From: Chloroflexota bacterium
GTDB taxonomy: Bacteria; Chloroflexota; Dehalococcoidia; Lucifugimonadales; Australimonadaceae
Reading direction: 5' to 3'
Assembly: GCA_028874795.1 (NCBI GenBank)
Contig: JAPPHT010000032.1
Coordinates: 1-63,803 of the forward strand
DNA: 63,803 nt
Made by a program: the position numbers and the translations under genes. Within the stretch, counting starts at the first letter, position 1. Every line of letters starts with the position of its first letter. Shown here one piece after another: positions 29,641-40,749 of the stretch. The notes beneath the pieces were generated by a model. That model saw only the letters and a list, made by a program, of their open reading frames with translations, made no database searches and had not been told where the DNA came from.

Positions 29641-30345
29641 CGCCCACCTCCTGTCGCCCTTGTTGGGGCGCATTATACGTCCGCCGCGGGCGGCGCGGGG
29701 GCAACCCTCACCTCCGGCCCCTGCGCAGCCGGAACAAGGTGTTCAATGGGCCGGAATTCTGAACATCTTGTTCAAAGCGCTACGAGTAAATCGCATGGCC
29801 GTTTTGAGCATCTTGAGCACCTTGCGATGGCGTGCGGCAGGCCACGGCCTGCTTCCAGCAACAAGGGAACAAGGTGCTCAGTTTTTTCAAAAGTTGGACC
29901 CGGAGCCACCCTCACCCCAACCCTCTCCCAGAGGGAGAGGGGGCAAACCGGCTGAGCCGGTGAGCTATAGACGGGATTCATGGGTGCTGCCGGTAGGACG
30001 GTCATGCAACCAGCGTAGGGGATGCGGGGACGACCGCGAAAGGGGCTGGTGTCAGAGAAGGGGACGCCCCACTCCGCCCCACGCAGGGCCCTCACCCGCC
30101 GCGCAAGCGCGTCGACCTCTCCCTCAGGAGAGGTGGCATGCGAGGTTGCGCGCTGAAGCGCGGGCACCGCTCAGCATGACAGGGGCCCCTCGTCTCGCGA
30201 CCTGACGGTCGCCCTGGATTCCCGCTTTCGCGGGAATGACGGAGAGGTGCGGGAATGACGGAGAAGTGCGGGAATGACGGAAGGGCGTGGTCGTGCGCTA
30301 CAATCCCGCGCAGCGCGTAGCTCCGCAGAGAAGGAAGGCGCAGGG
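29641..30345. other. repeat-rich intergenic region before the first Rieske gene
   Basis: No gene seen. Left part holds a cluster of related palindromes (separate entry 29732-29880). The right part holds element A near 29914 ('CCCTCTCCC-AGA-GGGAGAGGG'), a 'GCGCTGAAGCGCGGGC' near 30150, and element B near 30212 ('GATTCCCGCTTTCGCGGGAAT') followed by three short 'GCGGGAATGACGGA' repeats up to about 30280. TACAAT at 30299-30304 may be the promoter of the Rieske gene. Confidence 0.6.
29732..29880. repeat. cluster of four GAACA-N-CTTG-type palindromic sites
   Basis: Sites: GAACAAGGTGTTC (29732-29744), GAACATCTTGTTC (29761-29773), GAGCATCTTGAGC (29806-29818) and GAACAAGGTGCTC (29867-29879), in alternating orientation. 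TGAGCACCTTG (29814-29824) is also the exact inverse of CAAGGTGCTCA (29870-29880), which allows an 11-bp stem. Looks like a regulator array or RNA structure; no protein known to bind it can be named. Confidence 0.45.
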
Positions 30346-31596
30346 ATGCTGACGCAGCAGGAGAACGAGCGGCTCACGCAGGTGGGGCCCGGCACGCCGA
30401 TGGGCGAGTTGATGCGCCGCTACTGGCACCCCATCGCAGCGGCAGCCGAGATGGACGAGCGCCCCACCAAGCCGGTGCGGCTGCTCGGCGAGGACCTCGT
30501 CCTCTACAAGGACAGGTCCGGCACGCTGGGGTTGCTCGACCGCTTCTGCCCCCACCGCAGGGTCGACCTCTCCTACGGCATCCCCGAGGAGCACGGTCTC
30601 CGCTGCATGTACCACGGCTGGATGATGGACGAGACCGGCCAGTGCATCGAGCAGCCGTTCGAGGAGACGGTCCACCCGGACGGGCGCTTCAAGGAGAAGG
30701 TGCGCGTCACGGCATATCCGGTCGAGGAGCTAGGCGGCCTCTTGTTCGCCTACATGGGCCCTCTGCCCGCGCCGCTCGTCCCACGCTGGGATTTGTTCGT
30801 GACCGACCACGCGTGGCGCGACATCGGCTTCACGATGCTCCCCTGCAACTGGCTTCAGTGCCAGGAGAACTCAGCCGACCCCGTCCACGCCGAGTGGCTG
30901 CACGGCGTCTACGGCTGGTACCTCGCGCAGAAGACGGGCGAGGAGGTGCCGACGTGGCGCAAGGCGATGATGCGCCCCCACCAGCGCATCGGCTTCACGC
31001 AGTTCGCCCACGGCGTCTTCAAGAAGCGCATCGTCGAGGGCAGCACCGAGGACGACGACATCTGGAAGGTCGGCCATCCGTGGGTGTTCCCCAACATCCT
31101 CCGCTCCACGACCGGCACGACCAGCACCGAGTTCCAGATCCGCGTGCCCGTCGACGACGAGAACACGCTGCACGTCGTCTACACGCGCTACCAGTTCCCG
31201 CCGGAGGTGCGCGTGCCGCCGCAGGAGAAGGTGCCGTACTACGAGATACCGCTGTACGACGCGAACGGCGAGCTGAACGTGGAGCTGCCGCTGGTGCAGG
31301 ACTTCATGGCGTGGGTGACGCAGACGCCCATCGCCGACCGCACGCGCGAAAAGCTCGGCGAGTCCGACACGGGCGTCATCATGCTGCGGCGGATGCTGAA
31401 CGAGGCGATGGCCACCGTCGCGGACGGCGGGGACCCGATGAACGTCTTCCGCGACCCGGCGACGAACCAGTGCATCGAGATGACGCAGGAGAAGGTGTAC
31501 TACACGCCGGACCGCAACCAGGCGCGGATGATCTACTACGGCCACCAGAGCTACAACCCGGCCATCGACGAAATCATCGCCATGTTCCCGGAGTAG
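30346..31596 (+). CDS. Rieske non-heme iron oxygenase, alpha subunit (copy 1)
   Basis: 416 residues. Rieske [2Fe-2S] ligands in 'CPHRR' near residue 68 and 'CMYHGW' near 87. Mononuclear iron site 'NSADPVHAEWLHG' near 175-187. The family uses O2 and electrons from a reductase to hydroxylate or demethylate aromatic rings; this branch resembles phthalate 4,5-dioxygenase/vanillate demethylase oxygenases. ATG at 30346 with AGGAAGG upstream. No reductase gene nearby. Its last 25 codons ('[18 protein letters not shown]' region) recur as broken copies at 34569 and 35307. Confidence 0.93.
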   Translation: MLTQQENERLTQVGPGTPMGELMRRYWHPIAAAAEMDERPTKPVRLLGEDLVLYKDRSGTLGLLDRFCPHRRVDLSYGIPEEHGLRCMYHGWMMDETGQCIEQPFEETVHPDGRFKEKVRVTAYPVEELGGLLFAYMGPLPAPLVPRWDLFVTDHAWRDIGFTMLPCNWLQCQENSADPVHAEWLHGVYGWYLAQKTGEEVPTWRKAMMRPHQRIGFTQFAHGVFKKRIVEGSTEDDDIWKVGHPWVFPNILRSTTGTTSTEFQIRVPVDDENTLHVVYTRYQFPPEVRVPPQEKVPYYEIPLYDANGELNVELPLVQDFMAWVTQTPIADRTREKLGESDTGVIMLRRMLNEAMATVADGGDPMNVFRDPATNQCIEMTQEKVYYTPDRNQARMIYYGHQSYNPAIDEIIAMFPE

Positions 31597-34511: not shown

Positions 34512-34518
34512 CTACCCC

Positions 34519-34566
34519 ACGTCGTCGCAGTAGGCGAAGGCGTTGCCGATCGGCGAGGCGTAGACG
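34519..34566 (-). pseudogene. 3' end fragment of a LigB-type dioxygenase gene
   Basis: 48 bp identical to 37147-37194, the last codons of the intact LigB gene ('[16 protein letters not shown]'). The rest of the gene and the stop codon context are missing. At 34566 it joins a Rieske 3' end running the other way, as if the bodies of two divergent genes had been deleted. Confidence 0.85.
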
Positions 34567-34568
34567 TG

Positions 34569-34643
34569 GCGCGGACGATCTACTACGGCCACCCGAGCTG
34601 CAACCCGGCCATCGACGAGATTATCGCGATGTTCCCGGAGTAA
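34569..34643 (+). pseudogene. 3' end fragment of a Rieske oxygenase gene (fragment 1)
   Basis: 25 codons ending in TAA that read '[20 protein letters not shown]' plus 'MFPE', matching the last codons of the intact gene at 31522-31596 with 8 base differences including the stop. It therefore comes from a related but different gene copy. There is no start codon or remaining body. Confidence 0.85.
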
Positions 34644-34715: not shown

Positions 34716-34722
34716 TCGAGTG

Positions 34723-35013
34723 ATGGTTGAGGTCCGCCAAACCGACATCTACGCGCGTTGGTTCAGGCGGTTGAGAGACAGACAGGCGAGGGCCCGCATC
34801 GACAGCCGAATCCGGCGACTCTCCCTGGGCAACCCCGGTGACGTGAGACCAGTGGGCGAAGGGGTATCGGAGATCCGCATCGACTACGGGCCTGGCTACC
34901 GGGTGTACTTCACGCAGCGAGGCCAGAACCTGGTGGTGCTCCTGGCCGGAGGGGACAAGGACAGCCAGGAGCGGGACATCCAAAGGGCCCTAGTGTTGGC
35001 CAGAGGACTATAG
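34723..35013 (+). CDS. RelE/HigB-type toxin (addiction module killer protein)
   Basis: 96 residues. 'GVSEIRIDYGPGYRVYFTQR' and 'VVLLAGGDKDSQERDI' match the killer-protein subfamily of the RelE/ParE superfamily, ribosome-dependent mRNA interferases. Basic helix 'ARWFRRLRDRQARARIDSRI' precedes the sheet. A GTG directly before the ATG is possible but less well spaced to the -10 box. The toxin gene comes first, as in higBA. It lies between two Rieske fragments. Confidence 0.9.
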   Translation: MVEVRQTDIYARWFRRLRDRQARARIDSRIRRLSLGNPGDVRPVGEGVSEIRIDYGPGYRVYFTQRGQNLVVLLAGGDKDSQERDIQRALVLARGL

Positions 35014-35025
35014 GGGGCAGCAGAC

Positions 35026-35343
35026 ATGGCAAGGACGAAAACGCTTTCCTGGGACCCTGCAGAGCACCTGGAAACTGAGGAGGACATCGCCGCTTACCTG
35101 AACGTCGCCCTGGAAGAGGGCGACCTGAGCCTGATCATGGCTACTCTGGGCGACATAGCACGCGCCCGGCGCATGGCGATGGTAGCGCAGGAGTCGGGTC
35201 TAGGCCGGGAGAGCCTGTACAAGTCGTTGTCTGCGGACGGCAACCCGGAGTTCGGCACAGTGCTTAAGGTGCTGCATGCTCTGGGGCTCCAGCTTCAGGC
35301 CAGCGCTACAACCCGCCCATCGACAGGAACGCAGGGAGGATGA
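35026..35343 (+). CDS. HigA-type antitoxin (addiction module antidote)
   Basis: 105 residues. 'EDIAAYLNVALEEGDLSLIM' and the helix-turn-helix 'GLGRESLYKSLSADGNPEFG' match antidote proteins paired with this toxin. The last 13 residues ('ATTRPSTGTQGG' region) are read out of frame from a Rieske 3' fragment beginning at 35307, so the original stop was probably lost. Twelve nt after the toxin gene. Confidence 0.9.
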   Translation: MARTKTLSWDPAEHLETEEDIAAYLNVALEEGDLSLIMATLGDIARARRMAMVAQESGLGRESLYKSLSADGNPEFGTVLKVLHALGLQLQASATTRPSTGTQGG

Positions 35344-35407
35344 TCTACTACGGTCACCAGGCCTACAGCCCCCGACATCGACCAGATTATGGCGATGTCC
35401 CGGAATA
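35307..35407 (+). pseudogene. 3' end fragment of a Rieske oxygenase gene (fragment 2)
   Basis: Reads 'YNPPIDRNAGRMIYYGHQAY' in one frame, matching 'YYTPDRNQARMIYYGHQSY' of the intact gene at 30346, then shifts frame and ends 'CCCGGAATAG'. Two indels and many substitutions make it older than fragment 1. It overlaps the 3' end of the antitoxin gene and marks the left edge of the AT-rich island. Confidence 0.75.
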
Positions 35408-35514
35408 GGGGACTCCAAACCGGAGAGTCATCGGATATACTTGTGGAGGGTAGGATGCCTCGCTTTGAACACAATACCTAGTATGTGTCTGGGTAGTAGA
35501 GAAGGAGAATAGCA

Positions 35515-35685
35515 GTGACGATTGATTGGAATAGTTTAGCTAGGATGAGTAAGGACTCCGAAAGCTGCCCAGGAAGGCAGTCTTCATCTACACAAATTCA
35601 TAGGCTGGACAGAAGTTCAACCGAACGTCTGGCTTTGCAAGAATCGCTGTGTCAAATGCAAAGCCGTATGGTCACAGTTGCCTAA
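35515..35685 (+). CDS. small protein in the AT-rich island
   Basis: 56 residues, GTG start with a good GGAG site 8 nt upstream. Ser/Arg/Gln-rich, no recognisable domain. Its end overlaps the next frame by 8 nt; the two could be one gene split by a frameshift. Codon use is visibly more AT-rich than in the flanks. Confidence 0.4.
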   Translation: MTIDWNSLARMSKDSESCPGRQSSSTQIHRLDRSSTERLALQESLCQMQSRMVTVA

Positions 35686-35926
35686 ACTCACACTCATTCA
35701 GAGCGCAAGCAGCGAAGCACAAAGCGGCCTGCCCTGTAGTTGTGGGGAGTCTGTCGACAATCGCTTGGAATTAGGCGACACAGGTATTTTCCTATGCGGG
35801 ACTTGCGAGAAAGCCAACATGTTCTCCGGAGACCCTAGTCGCAACCTCAATATCCATCTTCAGCTTTATGGATTGGCCTCTATTGACCCCTACGCGACTG
35901 ACGAACCAATCGGCGATAGACGTTAG
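35678..35926 (+). CDS. small zinc-ribbon-like protein in the AT-rich island
   Basis: 82 residues, TTG start. Two Cys pairs, 'PCSCGES' and 'FLCGTCEKANMF', spaced about 20 residues apart, form a possible zinc ribbon. Not recognised further. The TTG start without a ribosome site suggests either coupling to the small upstream frame or a frameshifted longer gene. AT-rich like the EVE gene beside it. Confidence 0.45.
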   Translation: MPKLTLIQSASSEAQSGLPCSCGESVDNRLELGDTGIFLCGTCEKANMFSGDPSRNLNIHLQLYGLASIDPYATDEPIGDRR

Positions 35927-35987: not shown

Positions 35988-37100
35988 TTACGCCCGGACT
36001 TCGTAGTTGCTTAGAACGCTATGCATGGTATGTTGGAGGTTATCGAGCGCAGCAAGTGTATTCAACTTCGTGTAAGAAATGAAAGAACATTTCAATGACA
36101 GCTTCATCTCAGTATCAGAGAATACAGGGCGTTTGATTTCTTCAAGCACCTTCCCTTGCCTCTCGTCCGGAGCAACTATGTGGAGACTGATGTTGATATT
36201 CGGTTGTAGTGCCAGCAGGTCAGCCATACGTAGAAGGCCTGAATAGATGACAGTAGTGTCTTCAATTTCAAAAGCACGCGTTATTGCGTTACCTTGAAGC
36301 CACAGAACGTCAATATGCCGGATAGTACGTAGAGTAACTTCATTGTAGGCAAGGTTCAGTTGATTAAGGAACCGGTGATGCATAGATTCTGGGATGTGTT
36401 CAAGCACACGCGCCTTATCATTCGCAGGTACCCAGATAGAGAATCCCATTGTTGCACCAATCTCTGCAACCTTGGCCTGCATGCGAATAGAATTGCGAAC
36501 ATCGGGTGTCTGCTCTCCCGGTTCATCGGAGACCGACGTGGGCTGATGTTCACCTGAAGAAGGATCCGTGGGAGGCATTACAACTGCTTGTTTTGGGCTA
36601 GTGCCTCGCCCCCATTTCAGCTTGTCCTCGGCTGAAAGGGGAAAGGACCGCTGTTCACTGGATTGACGTTCAAGCAGTCCGTGCAGGAATCCGCCATCGG
36701 CCGACAACAAGGTGTTGTGCGACTGACGGAAAAGACCCGTCCAAACCCCAGAACCTTGGGCGAGATTCTTGGTGAACGAGAGGTTTTGCCATACTTCCGG
36801 GTCTTTAATCGGTATCGCGAGTTCAGGCTGTAGACGAATCAGGGGCTTGACCTCAGTGCGAATTACATATGGGTCTTCTGGGTTGTATAATCCAGTATCT
36901 GCGGAATATGGCTTAGACGTGACCTCCAACACCCCACACCAACGGGAAAGGCCAGTCAAGTAGCAGATGAAGATGTCTCCTGGATTAACCTTTCCTGCTA
37001 CCCTGCTTTCTGAACTACGAGCTACTCCAGTTATCGTGCCCGAGGTGTTGAGAAAAGCATTCCAGGTTGTAGGGCTGAAGATGTCAATGATGTATTGCAT
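35988..37100 (-). CDS. EVE-domain protein fused to a PD-(D/E)XK-like nuclease domain
   Basis: 370 residues. Residues 1-130 look like an EVE/PUA-type modified-base reader: 'YIIDIFSPTTWNAF', then 'GDIFICYLTGLSRWCGVLEV'. A Ser/Pro linker (about 150-210) follows. The C-terminal part has 'IRHIDVLWLQGNAITRAFEI' continuing 'EDTT', then 'YSGLLRMADL' and 'IVAPDERQGKVLEEIKRPVF', a pattern I know from restriction-associated nuclease-like domains (D...ExE core). ATG at 37100 is 8 nt after AAGG. Likely a modification-dependent restriction or sensing protein (inference). GC is 54/120 in 36181-36300, against 43/60 just outside. Confidence 0.65.
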   Translation of the reverse strand: MQYIIDIFSPTTWNAFLNTSGTITGVARSSESRVAGKVNPGDIFICYLTGLSRWCGVLEVTSKPYSADTGLYNPEDPYVIRTEVKPLIRLQPELAIPIKDPEVWQNLSFTKNLAQGSGVWTGLFRQSHNTLLSADGGFLHGLLERQSSEQRSFPLSAEDKLKWGRGTSPKQAVVMPPTDPSSGEHQPTSVSDEPGEQTPDVRNSIRMQAKVAEIGATMGFSIWVPANDKARVLEHIPESMHHRFLNQLNLAYNEVTLRTIRHIDVLWLQGNAITRAFEIEDTTVIYSGLLRMADLLALQPNINISLHIVAPDERQGKVLEEIKRPVFSDTEMKLSLKCSFISYTKLNTLAALDNLQHTMHSVLSNYEVRA

Positions 37101-37143
37101 GGGCACAACCTTAACAACTTGCCCTCCTCCTCTGCAACATCCT

Positions 37144-38127
37144 TCACACGTCGTCGCAGTAGGCGAAGGCGTTGCCGATCGGCGAGGCGTAGACCTCGAT
37201 GTAGTCGACGATGGTCGTGGGGCGGCCGTCGCTGACCCCGGCAGCCGCTATCCACGCGCAGGTCTCGCGTGTGCCGAACGCGGGACCGCCCGGCGACGGC
37301 ATGCCGGTGCTGACGCGCCCGCGGTAGGTCGCATCCTGGCTCGTGTCGTCCTCCGGGATGACGTAGGAGTCGAAGTAGTCGGCCATGCCGCGAGCGTCGC
37401 CCGCTTCGAGGCGCGCGAGTATCGCGCGGTCGAACTCCTCGTTCAACCATGCGCCCGGCATCCCCGGGGTGTGCCACAGCCCGCCCGACGCCGCGACCGC
37501 GACGCGCAGGTCGGACGGCGCGTCATCCAGCGCCTCTCGCACGGCCTTGCCGAACTGGTAGCTGCGCAGGCCCGACACCTGGGGCGCGAAGTAGAGGTTC
37601 ATCATGATGGGCACGGATGGCAGCGAGAAGTCGGTCAGCTCCTCGACCGACCGGATGACGCCGCCGGCGAGGCCGCGGTCCGGCTTCGGCATGTCCATGC
37701 AGAAGGCTGGATCGAAGCCGCGCTGCATGACGCCGGAGAGCAGGTGCACCGCAAGCTCCGGGTGGCCGGGGAAGCGGTAGCCGGGCTCGGCGTGACGCCC
37801 GATCTCCGGGGTGCGCGGCTCGCGCGGCGATTTCGCGTAGCTATCGCCGACGTAGACCGCGAACGCGGGGTAGTTGTTGAAGTCGAAGCACTCCAGCTGG
37901 TCGTCGCTGAAGATGACGAGCACGTCGGGCTCGAGCTCGGCGATGCGCTCGCGCAGGACGCGGAAGCCCTCGTGCGTGCGGTTGGCCTTCTCGATGTTCA
38001 CCTCGAGCGACTCGTTGGGCACGTCGGCGCGGATCGGTCGCGCGTTCCGCCGCTCGACCCACAGCTCGGGCGGGAGCGACGTCGTCCCCCCGTGCGAATG
38101 GAAGAAAGTCCCGACGATGGTGGCCAT
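37144..38127 (-). CDS. LigB-type class III extradiol dioxygenase (copy A)
   Basis: 327 residues. Opens catechol-type rings next to the diol using Fe(II). Probable ligands in 'TFFHSHGGTTSLP' near residue 10 and 'VIFSDDQLECFDFNNYPAF' near 65; the catalytic-His region is 'VAVAASGGLWHTPGMPGAWL' near 220. Start at 38127 supported by AAGGAG. Its 3' end ('[14 protein letters not shown]') is repeated as a 48-bp identical fragment at 34519. Convergent with the EVE island. Related to copy B at 62165 in domain order. Confidence 0.85.
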   Translation of the reverse strand: MATIVGTFFHSHGGTTSLPPELWVERRNARPIRADVPNESLEVNIEKANRTHEGFRVLRERIAELEPDVLVIFSDDQLECFDFNNYPAFAVYVGDSYAKSPREPRTPEIGRHAEPGYRFPGHPELAVHLLSGVMQRGFDPAFCMDMPKPDRGLAGGVIRSVEELTDFSLPSVPIMMNLYFAPQVSGLRSYQFGKAVREALDDAPSDLRVAVAASGGLWHTPGMPGAWLNEEFDRAILARLEAGDARGMADYFDSYVIPEDDTSQDATYRGRVSTGMPSPGGPAFGTRETCAWIAAAGVSDGRPTTIVDYIEVYASPIGNAFAYCDDV

Positions 38128-38608
38128 GCGTGTCGCTCCTTTCGTCGTGCTGAGCGTTGCGCGGAGTATACGCGCCCGCGCTCCGTGCCGTAGGAGCCTC
38201 ACCCGCCGGGGTTCGCCCTCACCCGCCGCTGGCGCGGGCCTCTTCCTGGGGGCGAGGGGGTCAGGCAGAGCACCCCGCACCACGCTCCACGCCCGCGGGC
38301 GTGGCCCCTACTCTCTGCGCGCGACGAAGTGCGTGAACGACGGAATCGGCGTTCCGTCCGGGACACCCGCCCGAGAGGATTCTGCGCGCTGAAGCGCGGG
38401 GCTGCGCCACCGACTGCGTCGACGGCTCCGCTCGGAATGACAACCCCATTCCACCCCAGCCCACCGTGTGCGCTACCCGCGCACTCTGGATTCCCGCCGG
38501 TGCGGGAACGACGGAAACGAGGCGGAATGTGACACGAGGGCATTGCGGGGTACAGCCCTGCCTCCCCTAGAGTGGGCATTGCCATACAGTGGGCAAGGAG
38601 GAGACGAG
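38128..38608. other. repeat-rich intergenic region
   Basis: No gene seen in the first 480 bases upstream of the LigB start. Contains 'CCTCACCCGCC' words near 38200, 'GCGCTGAAGCGCGGGG' near 38387 and an element B variant near 38489 ('GGATTCCCGCCGGTGCGGGAACGACGG'). A TACAGT near 38585 and an AAGGAGG site lead into the gene at 38609. Confidence 0.55.
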
Positions 38609-39001: not shown

Positions 39002-39252
39002 GGTTCAGCTCCGCCCCATGTGGGAAAAGCGGGCGCCAGGCACTGCGTCCGAGGCAACCCTCACCCGCCACGCGGCAGCGTGGCGACCCGTTCGACAAGC
39101 TCAGGGCAGGCTCTCTCCCCGGGGGAGAGGTGGGGCTGCGGGCTTCCTGCTCTCCGCGCGCTGAAGCGCGGGCTCCTTCCTGCGGAAGAGGGGAACAGAG
39201 CCCCGTCGCGCCGCGTGCGCTGCCCGCGCACGTGCGACCTTACGGTTGCTCT
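39002..39252. other. intergenic stretch with dispersed repeats
   Basis: Contains 'TTCGACAAGCTCAGGGCAGG' near 39090, 'CTCTCTCCCCGGGGGAGAG' near 39110 and 'GCGCGCTGAAGCGCGGGC' near 39156. No gene. Leads into the 54-bp tandem array. Confidence 0.5.
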
Positions 39253-39661
39253 GGATTCCCGCTTTCGCGGGAATGACGGGGGCTGCGCCCCGCGTCCCAG
39301 GCTGCTGGATTCCCGCTTTCGCGGGAATGACGAGGGCTGCGCCCCGTGTCCCAAGCTGCTGGATTCCCGCTTTCGCGGGATTGACGGGGGCTGCGCCCCG
39401 CGTCTCAGGCTGCTGGATTCCCGCTTTCGCGAGAATGACGGGGGCTGCGCCCCGGGTCCCAGGCTGCTGGATCCCGCTTTCGCGGGAATGACGGGGGCTG
39501 CGCCCCGTGTCTCGGGCTGCTGGATCCCCGCTCTCGCGGGAATGACGAGGGCTGCGCCCCGCGTCCCAGGCTGCTGGATTCCCGCTTTCGCGGGATTGAC
39601 GGGGGCTGCACCCCGTGTCTCAGGCTGCTGGATCCCCGCTTTCGCGGGAATGACGGGACCG
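39253..39661. repeat. tandem array of eight 54-bp units with two palindromes each
   Basis: Unit starts (GGATTCCCGC or variant) at 39253, 39307, 39361, 39415, 39469, 39522, 39576 and 39630; spacing is 54 bp except one 53-bp unit with a deleted T. Each unit has TTCCCGC-TTTC-GCGGGAA and GGGGCTGCGCCCC. In the + frame it is open and reads 'WIPAFAGMTGAAPRVPGC' per unit, but no start or ribosome site precedes it. Ends 8 bp before the alcohol dehydrogenase stop. Confidence 0.9.
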
Positions 39662-39669
39662 GTTGGGGA

Positions 39670-40749
39670 TCAGGCCGCCATGTTGGGATTGACCATCACC
39701 CAGACGGCGTCGGCCCCCTCGCCCTCGCCGCCGGAGGCGAGGCAGGCCTCTCCCGTCAGCTCCAGGGGGAAGTTGTGCGTCACCAACTCCTTGAGCGGGT
39801 AGTCGCCCGATGCGATCAGTTCGAGGCCCATCGCCACGCTCGCGTAGCTGTGGCCCCGGCACGCCCTGAGCTGTCCGTACTTGCCTGTGAGCTTCTCCAG
39901 GGAGAACGACTCGAGCTCGTAGGCCTGGGTCACGACGATGCCGCCGCGCCGCACCAGCACGTCGATAGCCTGGTTGAAGATGACCGGGATACGGCCGGTC
40001 GTGCAGTCGACAACGGCGTCCGCGCCGCGCCCGTTCGTGATGTCCATGATCGTCTCGGTGAAGTCGTTGGTCTGCACGTCGATGGTGTGGTCCGCGCCGA
40101 GCCGCCTCGCCGCTTCGAGCCGCGAACCGTCCTTGGACAGCCCGGTCACGATGACCGTCGCGCCGGCCTTCTTGGCCGCGAGGGTTGCGCCGAGGCCCTT
40201 GGAGCCGGGTCCCTGCACGACGACCGTCTTGCCCGGAGCGGCCTCGCCCTCCTTGACCGCCCATTGCACGCCGTTGCCTACCGGCAGGGCGAGCGCGGCC
40301 TCGTCGGGCGTCATCGTCTGCGGCACCTTGTGCAGCACCACGTTCGGGGGCAGGTAGAGGTACTGCCGGAAGCCGCCGTCCAGCCTGCTGGGGTTGGGGT
40401 TGTTGTGCGTGTCAGTGAGCCAGCAGTGCCTGAACTCACCGATGCGGCACCACTCGCAGTGCCCGCACGGCAGATACTCCTCCAACGCGACGAGCTCGCC
40501 CTCCTCGACGCCATGACGGTCCAGGAACCCCTGCCCCGCCTTCACGATGACGCCCGCGTTCTCGTGCGCGTTCATCCCGGGAACAGTACTCCTGCCGCCG
40601 CCCTCCCTCGTGAAGTAGCCGTAGGAGCCGCACATGCCGGCCGCCTCGACCTTCATCAGGGCGCTGTTGTAGTCGATATCCGGGACGTCGATCTCCTGGA
40701 TCTCCGCCTTGCGGGGCGCAACCTTGACTGCCGCCAGCGTCGTCTCCAT
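39670..40749 (-). CDS. zinc-dependent medium-chain alcohol dehydrogenase
   Basis: 359 residues. Catalytic-zinc Cys in 'AAGMCGSYGYFT', His-Glu in 'NAHENAGVIVKAG', and four structural-zinc Cys in 'CGHCEWCRIGEFRHC'. Rossmann fold with 'VQGPGSKGLGATLAAKKAGA' near residue 175, so NAD(P)-linked. ATG at 40749 with GGAGGG upstream, 18 nt after the ligJ-like gene, so the two form an operon. May oxidise an alcohol or hydroxy acid in the same pathway. Confidence 0.9.
   Translation of the reverse strand: METTLAAVKVAPRKAEIQEIDVPDIDYNSALMKVEAAGMCGSYGYFTREGGGRSTVPGMNAHENAGVIVKAGQGFLDRHGVEEGELVALEEYLPCGHCEWCRIGEFRHCWLTDTHNNPNPSRLDGGFRQYLYLPPNVVLHKVPQTMTPDEAALALPVGNGVQWAVKEGEAAPGKTVVVQGPGSKGLGATLAAKKAGATVIVTGLSKDGSRLEAARRLGADHTIDVQTNDFTETIMDITNGRGADAVVDCTTGRIPVIFNQAIDVLVRRGGIVVTQAYELESFSLEKLTGKYGQLRACRGHSYASVAMGLELIASGDYPLKELVTHNFPLELTGEACLASGGEGEGADAVWVMVNPNMAA

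Follow-up and report, generated by a model that had tools for sequence, protein, structure and literature searches.

The window, by which we mean the whole 63,803-nucleotide stretch of Chloroflexota DNA that was analyzed, contains a gene for an EVE-nuclease fusion protein at 35988-37100 on the minus strand. The open reading frame ends at 35988 and has 372 codons from a GTG at 37106 or 370 codons from an ATG at 37100. Because ATG 37100 aligns with the 'MxYFLDLF' of related proteins, it is the better start, with GTG 37106 as an alternative. A chance frame is excluded since full-length relatives with 41-50% identity occur in several phyla, and the intact frame together with these relatives confirmed the original prediction of a real gene at this place. 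That prediction had also put the gene on an AT-rich island, giving 54 G+C in 120 bases of the island (36181-36300) against 43 in 60 bases just outside it (37201-37260). Both counts are exact, and the gene indeed lies inside the lowest-G+C stretch of the window: its G+C content is 49.1% against a window mean of 66.9% (sd 2.4%), and among all 1113-base stretches of the 63.8 kb, the lowest, with 48.5% G+C, has its first base at 35381, while none elsewhere falls below 59.0%. At codon positions 1, 2, and 3, G+C is 56, 42, and 50% in the EVE-nuclease gene versus 68, 51, and 91% in the adjoining LigB gene, which fits a donor of lower G+C. The EVE-nuclease gene is horizontally acquired. The two further small foreign-looking frames mentioned in the same prediction are probably those at 35515-35685 and 35678-35926. 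Such frames are present, and they are perhaps not genes, since 35678-35926 had no match in Pfam and NCBIfam and the related loci offer no convincing counterpart of either frame.

The gene is located between a Rieske-type oxygenase gene (30274-31596, plus strand), named from its sequence alone without a family search, and the LigB gene (37144-38283, minus strand). A perfect 48-bp direct repeat brackets the region: one copy (37147-37194) is the 3' end of the intact LigB gene and forms a cassette border, and its partner (34518-34565) is a duplicate of that end with 100% identity. The 3' end of the Rieske gene is also duplicated, at 34568-34642 (plus strand, 92% identity to 31521-31595), ahead of a toxin-antitoxin cassette, and a second, more diverged copy (35322-35411, plus strand, 78%) forms the other border of the EVE-nuclease cassette. 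The neighboring cassette encodes a RelE/ParE (HigB-like) toxin (34720-35013, plus strand; NCBIfam TIGR02683, E 1.5e-39) and a HigA-like antitoxin (35026-35343, plus strand; Pfam PF21716, E 2e-31; TIGR02684). The order in the window is thus lipoprotein gene, LigB-end copy, Rieske-end copy, HigBA, second Rieske-end copy, EVE-nuclease gene, and LigB gene. Farther along, at 39020-39800, the window has tandem copies of a short repeat of which one frame reads 'WIPAFAGMTG'.

The content of this slot differs among the four congeneric genomes compared (congener loci L054-L056), and the slot is therefore a variable one. The same interval holds only the lipoprotein gene in genome G004, only a HigBA-like pair in G005, and a lipoprotein gene, HigBA, and a HicA-like frame in G003; no toxin frame was seen in G003 among open reading frames of at least 80 amino acids. 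Similar end copies are found in G003, including a 102-bp LigB end at 88% identity. From these four genomes, we infer that the slot grew by repeated insertion of cassettes carrying the ends of the flanking genes, via homologous recombination. No recombinase gene was seen in the slot. The idea that the toxin-antitoxin pair is part of the EVE-nuclease system was considered and rejected, as the pair occurs without the EVE gene in G003 and G005.

An AlphaFold model of the protein was built on an alignment of 11 relatives. Residues 1-150 (36651-37100, minus strand) form an EVE domain, a predicted reader of modified bases. In the model, residues 3-146 matched PH1033 (1wmm) with Z 15.7 and rmsd 1.9 over 127 aligned residues, the next structural neighbors being YTH domains with Z of about 12. 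A profile made from 18 relatives and run against all solved structures matched PH1033 (1wmm) with E 1.2e-9 and MJECL36 (2p5d) with E of about 1e-9, both of which are EVE/UPF0310 proteins; VcaM4I was absent from the matches of this run. The Pfam EVE model (PF01878) matched the window copy weakly (E 0.0088, 16.5 bits against a gathering cut-off of 23) and matched relatives more strongly (E 1.4e-4 and 2.6e-5), with relative L070 exceeding the cut-off at 24.7 bits. With the Z score, the profile E-value, and Pfam EVE matches in several relatives in agreement, the predicted EVE/PUA fold of the N-terminal half stands, and the EVE assignment from model and profiles is secure. A linker (residues 151-198; 36507-36650, minus strand) follows, mostly modeled at low confidence (pLDDT <50 for residues 168-199 in the 372-residue numbering).

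Residues 199-370 (35991-36506, minus strand) are predicted to be a PD-(D/E)XK-like nuclease domain, with D264, E278, and E280 as putative catalytic acids, from conservation, a PADLOC profile, and the model. In an alignment of 33 divergent homologues, several of which have other N-terminal parts, D66, W69, E82, T85, and V111 (domain numbering) are invariant and E80 is more than 90% conserved. The resulting D...E-x-E motif sits where PD-(D/E)XK enzymes carry D...(D/E)-x-K, and the E-x-E variant of this motif is known from BamHI. PADLOC profile REase_II PDLC03534 ('type II restriction enzyme') matched the nuclease half with E 2e-10 over profile positions 176-311 of 351, and the same profile matched 12 of the 13 EVE fusion proteins tested, the window protein among them. 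Modeled in isolation, the 172-residue domain gave an alpha/beta structure (pLDDT 93, pTM 0.89) whose order of secondary-structure elements agrees with the alpha-beta-beta-beta-alpha-beta core. The top four Foldseek matches of this model were restriction-enzyme chains, at poor E-values (0.025 to 0.17). VIA-align placed BspD6I first with Z 8.5 and FokI, BstEII, BsaWI, EcoT38I, and NgoMIV lower, with Rossmann dehydrogenases interleaved at Z 7 to 8. Because Z 8.5 is close to the 7.9 of unrelated Rossmann folds, the fold match by itself is not decisive and is also compatible with other folds; when it is combined with the D...E-x-E motif and the PADLOC profile, the C-terminal half is best read as a PD-(D/E)XK-type nuclease. 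Neither Pfam nor NCBIfam has a family for the nuclease half of the window copy or its relatives. Among solved structures, a sequence search with the whole protein gave no match and the nuclease profile gave nothing convincing, and no experimental study of this nuclease family was found in the literature. The conserved acids, their PD-(D/E)XK-like arrangement, and the restriction-enzyme profile bear out the view that the C-terminal half is nuclease-like. The original prediction had named three findings that would count against it (an N-terminal half without a PUA/EVE fold, a C-terminal half without a nuclease core, and acidic residues that are not conserved), and none of them was encountered.

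The nuclease domain also occurs in other contexts. One chain (L010:1-1920, in genome G072) joins a DNA methylase region to the same nuclease domain, a family of about 311 amino acids (L077-L082, L007) has another N-terminal part in front of it, and plasmid relatives of 421-435 amino acids (L105, L107, L108) lack an EVE match. Conversely, in the protein at L076:844-1974 the EVE domain is followed by another kind of C-terminal half, one with a classical 'DTDVLV...DAK' nuclease-like pattern, and fusions of EVE with nuclease-like domains have therefore probably arisen at least twice. A tentative and rather doubtful extension is that the nuclease domain founds a family of stand-alone E-x-E restriction nucleases with varied sensors (EVE, the N-terminal parts of the plasmid and 311-residue forms, and the methylase), each sensing a different mark of foreign DNA, and that the EVE form reads a modification new to EVE.

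About 20 full-length relatives of the EVE-nuclease fusion were found in several phyla, and the fusion is a genuine protein family. They are 41-50% identical and come from Chloroflexota, Candidatus Binatota, Gemmatimonadota, Kiloniellaceae, Gammaproteobacteria, Gallionella, and a deltaproteobacterium; a Nitrospira copy is frameshifted, and a Defluviicoccus copy is broken off at a contig end. The distribution is patchy: a full-length or near-full-length match is present in 10 of 400 genomes of the phylum, and the window genome is the sole carrier among six genomes of its genus, with few others in the order. The copy at L002:1486-2640 has a stop codon inside the EVE domain and is flanked by two similar phosphotriesterase-like genes. 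A phage or viral origin of the gene was rejected, as no relative was found in viral contigs or phage records.

When about 20 neighborhoods of relatives were compared, no conserved partner gene recurred. The neighbors are scattered and include N6/N4 methylases, an MmeI-like enzyme, and AAA ATPases, with a phage portal gene near one relative (L046) and a methylase/HNH region directly upstream of another (L003). The claim that no methylase or helicase lies nearby is right for the window locus, while a methylase does adjoin some relatives. In the window and in most relatives, sensor and nuclease thus share one chain without a dedicated methylase; a cognate methylase beside the nuclease, the classical type II trait, is absent at the window locus and is found near only a few relatives. 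The host genome has one gene of an m5C methylase family and several of N6/N4 methylase families, so the modification targeted by the protein should differ from the host's own marks.

Based on sequence, structure models, and analogy with studied enzymes, we propose with a probability of about 0.72 that the gene product is a stand-alone modification-dependent (type IV-like) restriction endonuclease. This reading is supported by the EVE fold, the restriction profile, the conservation of D...E-x-E, the patchy distribution, and the lack of a conserved partner. On this reading, horizontal transfer would have brought in the gene within a cassette now lodged in the variable slot between two conserved oxygenase genes. 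In the proposed mechanism, the EVE domain would flip a modified base from DNA into its pocket, and the PD-(D/E)XK-type nuclease, joined to it by the flexible linker, would cut near the flipped base using D264, E278, and E280 (the E-x-E motif variant), probably as a dimer. No partner methylase would be required, as host DNA that is unmodified, or modified in another way, would not be a target. The fusion protein would then cut modified phage DNA, as originally predicted, and may serve in phage or plasmid defense.

An unlikely alternative is that the protein is a modification-blocked type II-like restriction enzyme, with its protecting methylase elsewhere in the genome and the EVE domain used for DNA binding or self-recognition. 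It would explain why the nuclease half is nearest to a type II restriction profile, why an N6/N4 methylase gene lies near two relatives, and why the nuclease domain is also found in a methylase-nuclease fusion; however, the methylase is not adjacent in most relatives, and EVE reads modified bases in the enzymes that have been studied (PMC7897488). Even less probable, and the least likely of the readings considered, is an RNA-directed or toxin-like nuclease that recognizes a modified base in RNA. EVE/YTH relatives often bind RNA, YTH domains are the next structural neighbors of the EVE half, and a toxin-antitoxin cassette adjoins the gene. Yet the nuclease half is restriction-enzyme-like, the toxin-antitoxin pair belongs to a cassette of its own, present without EVE in G003 and G005, and the authors of the VcaM4I paper state that there is no evidence of such fusions acting on RNA (PMC7897488). 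DNA is a more probable substrate than RNA.

The family could also be of type IV while the window copy itself is decaying or inactive, which we consider improbable. The other ten sequences share 104 invariant columns, and the window protein deviates from 19 of these, 12 times by a radical change; among the 19 is H283D (372-residue numbering), beside a predicted catalytic acid. Any other sequence deviates at no more than 5 columns. Because a leave-one-out count of this kind works against whichever sequence diverges most, it is a warning and not proof. The window copy also has the longest branch of the tree (1.29 versus a median of 0.27), and the tree gave no starred placement for it. On the other hand, the frame runs unbroken for 370 codons, none of the three predicted catalytic acids has been lost, and G+C still varies between codon positions in the manner of coding genes. 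Judged from its sequence, the window copy may be weakened or losing function, or it may be specialized.

If active, the stand-alone type IV-like enzyme would be a compact one-protein nuclease, possibly with a new modified-base specificity, useful for defense biology and for mapping DNA modifications. The slot also shows, inside one genus, small defense and toxin-antitoxin cassettes accumulating, with duplicated gene ends as their footprints.

Several known systems resemble the window protein. Plasmid 'type II restriction endonucleases' of 421-435 amino acids (e.g., WP_154453994) have a homologous nuclease domain with D...E-x-E at 29% identity and, like the window gene, no directly adjacent methylase in the records viewed; they differ in having another N-terminal part with no EVE match. 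Heavy-metal P-type ATPase genes are frequent neighbors of theirs, with examples in Sphingomonas, Deinococcus, and Komagataeibacter. MspJI and PvuRts1I likewise combine a PUA-superfamily reader with a PD-(D/E)XK nuclease in one chain, but their reader is SRA or SRA-like, whereas that of the window protein is EVE.

The original prediction knew of no described system with this EVE-nuclease architecture. That point is not supported, since Bell, Wolf, and Koonin had in 2020 already reported EVE-PD(D/E)XK fusions and classed them as putative type IV restriction enzymes (PMC7641849), and the window fusion therefore belongs to a known, mostly untested kind. It shares with that class the two-domain architecture, the predicted role, a diverged EVE domain, and the single gene, and differs in its D...E-x-E motif instead of the classical (D/E)-x-K and in a nuclease without a Pfam model. 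The architecture is thus already predicted, and the less familiar part is the unnamed, uncharacterized nuclease family. If active, the protein would count among the early members of this predicted class to be tested.

The EVE-HNH enzymes VcaM4I and TspA15I, which have modification-dependent activity, are likewise encoded by single genes that combine an EVE reader with a nuclease and have no methylase (PMC7897488). Single-chain sensor-nuclease proteins without a methylase are the mark of modification-dependent restriction enzymes (PMC7897488). The nuclease of VcaM4I and TspA15I is HNH, in contrast to the PD-(D/E)XK-like nuclease of the window protein. In VcaM4I, the EVE domain flips 5mC or 5hmC into a pocket (residues P24, W82, and Y130) and the linker restrains the nuclease (PMC7897488). 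The domain order of VcaM4I (EVE, linker, and nuclease) is that of the window protein. The logic of base flipping and linker restraint in VcaM4I may, by analogy, apply to the EVE-nuclease fusion described here, with nuclease activity predicted to reside in the C-terminal half.
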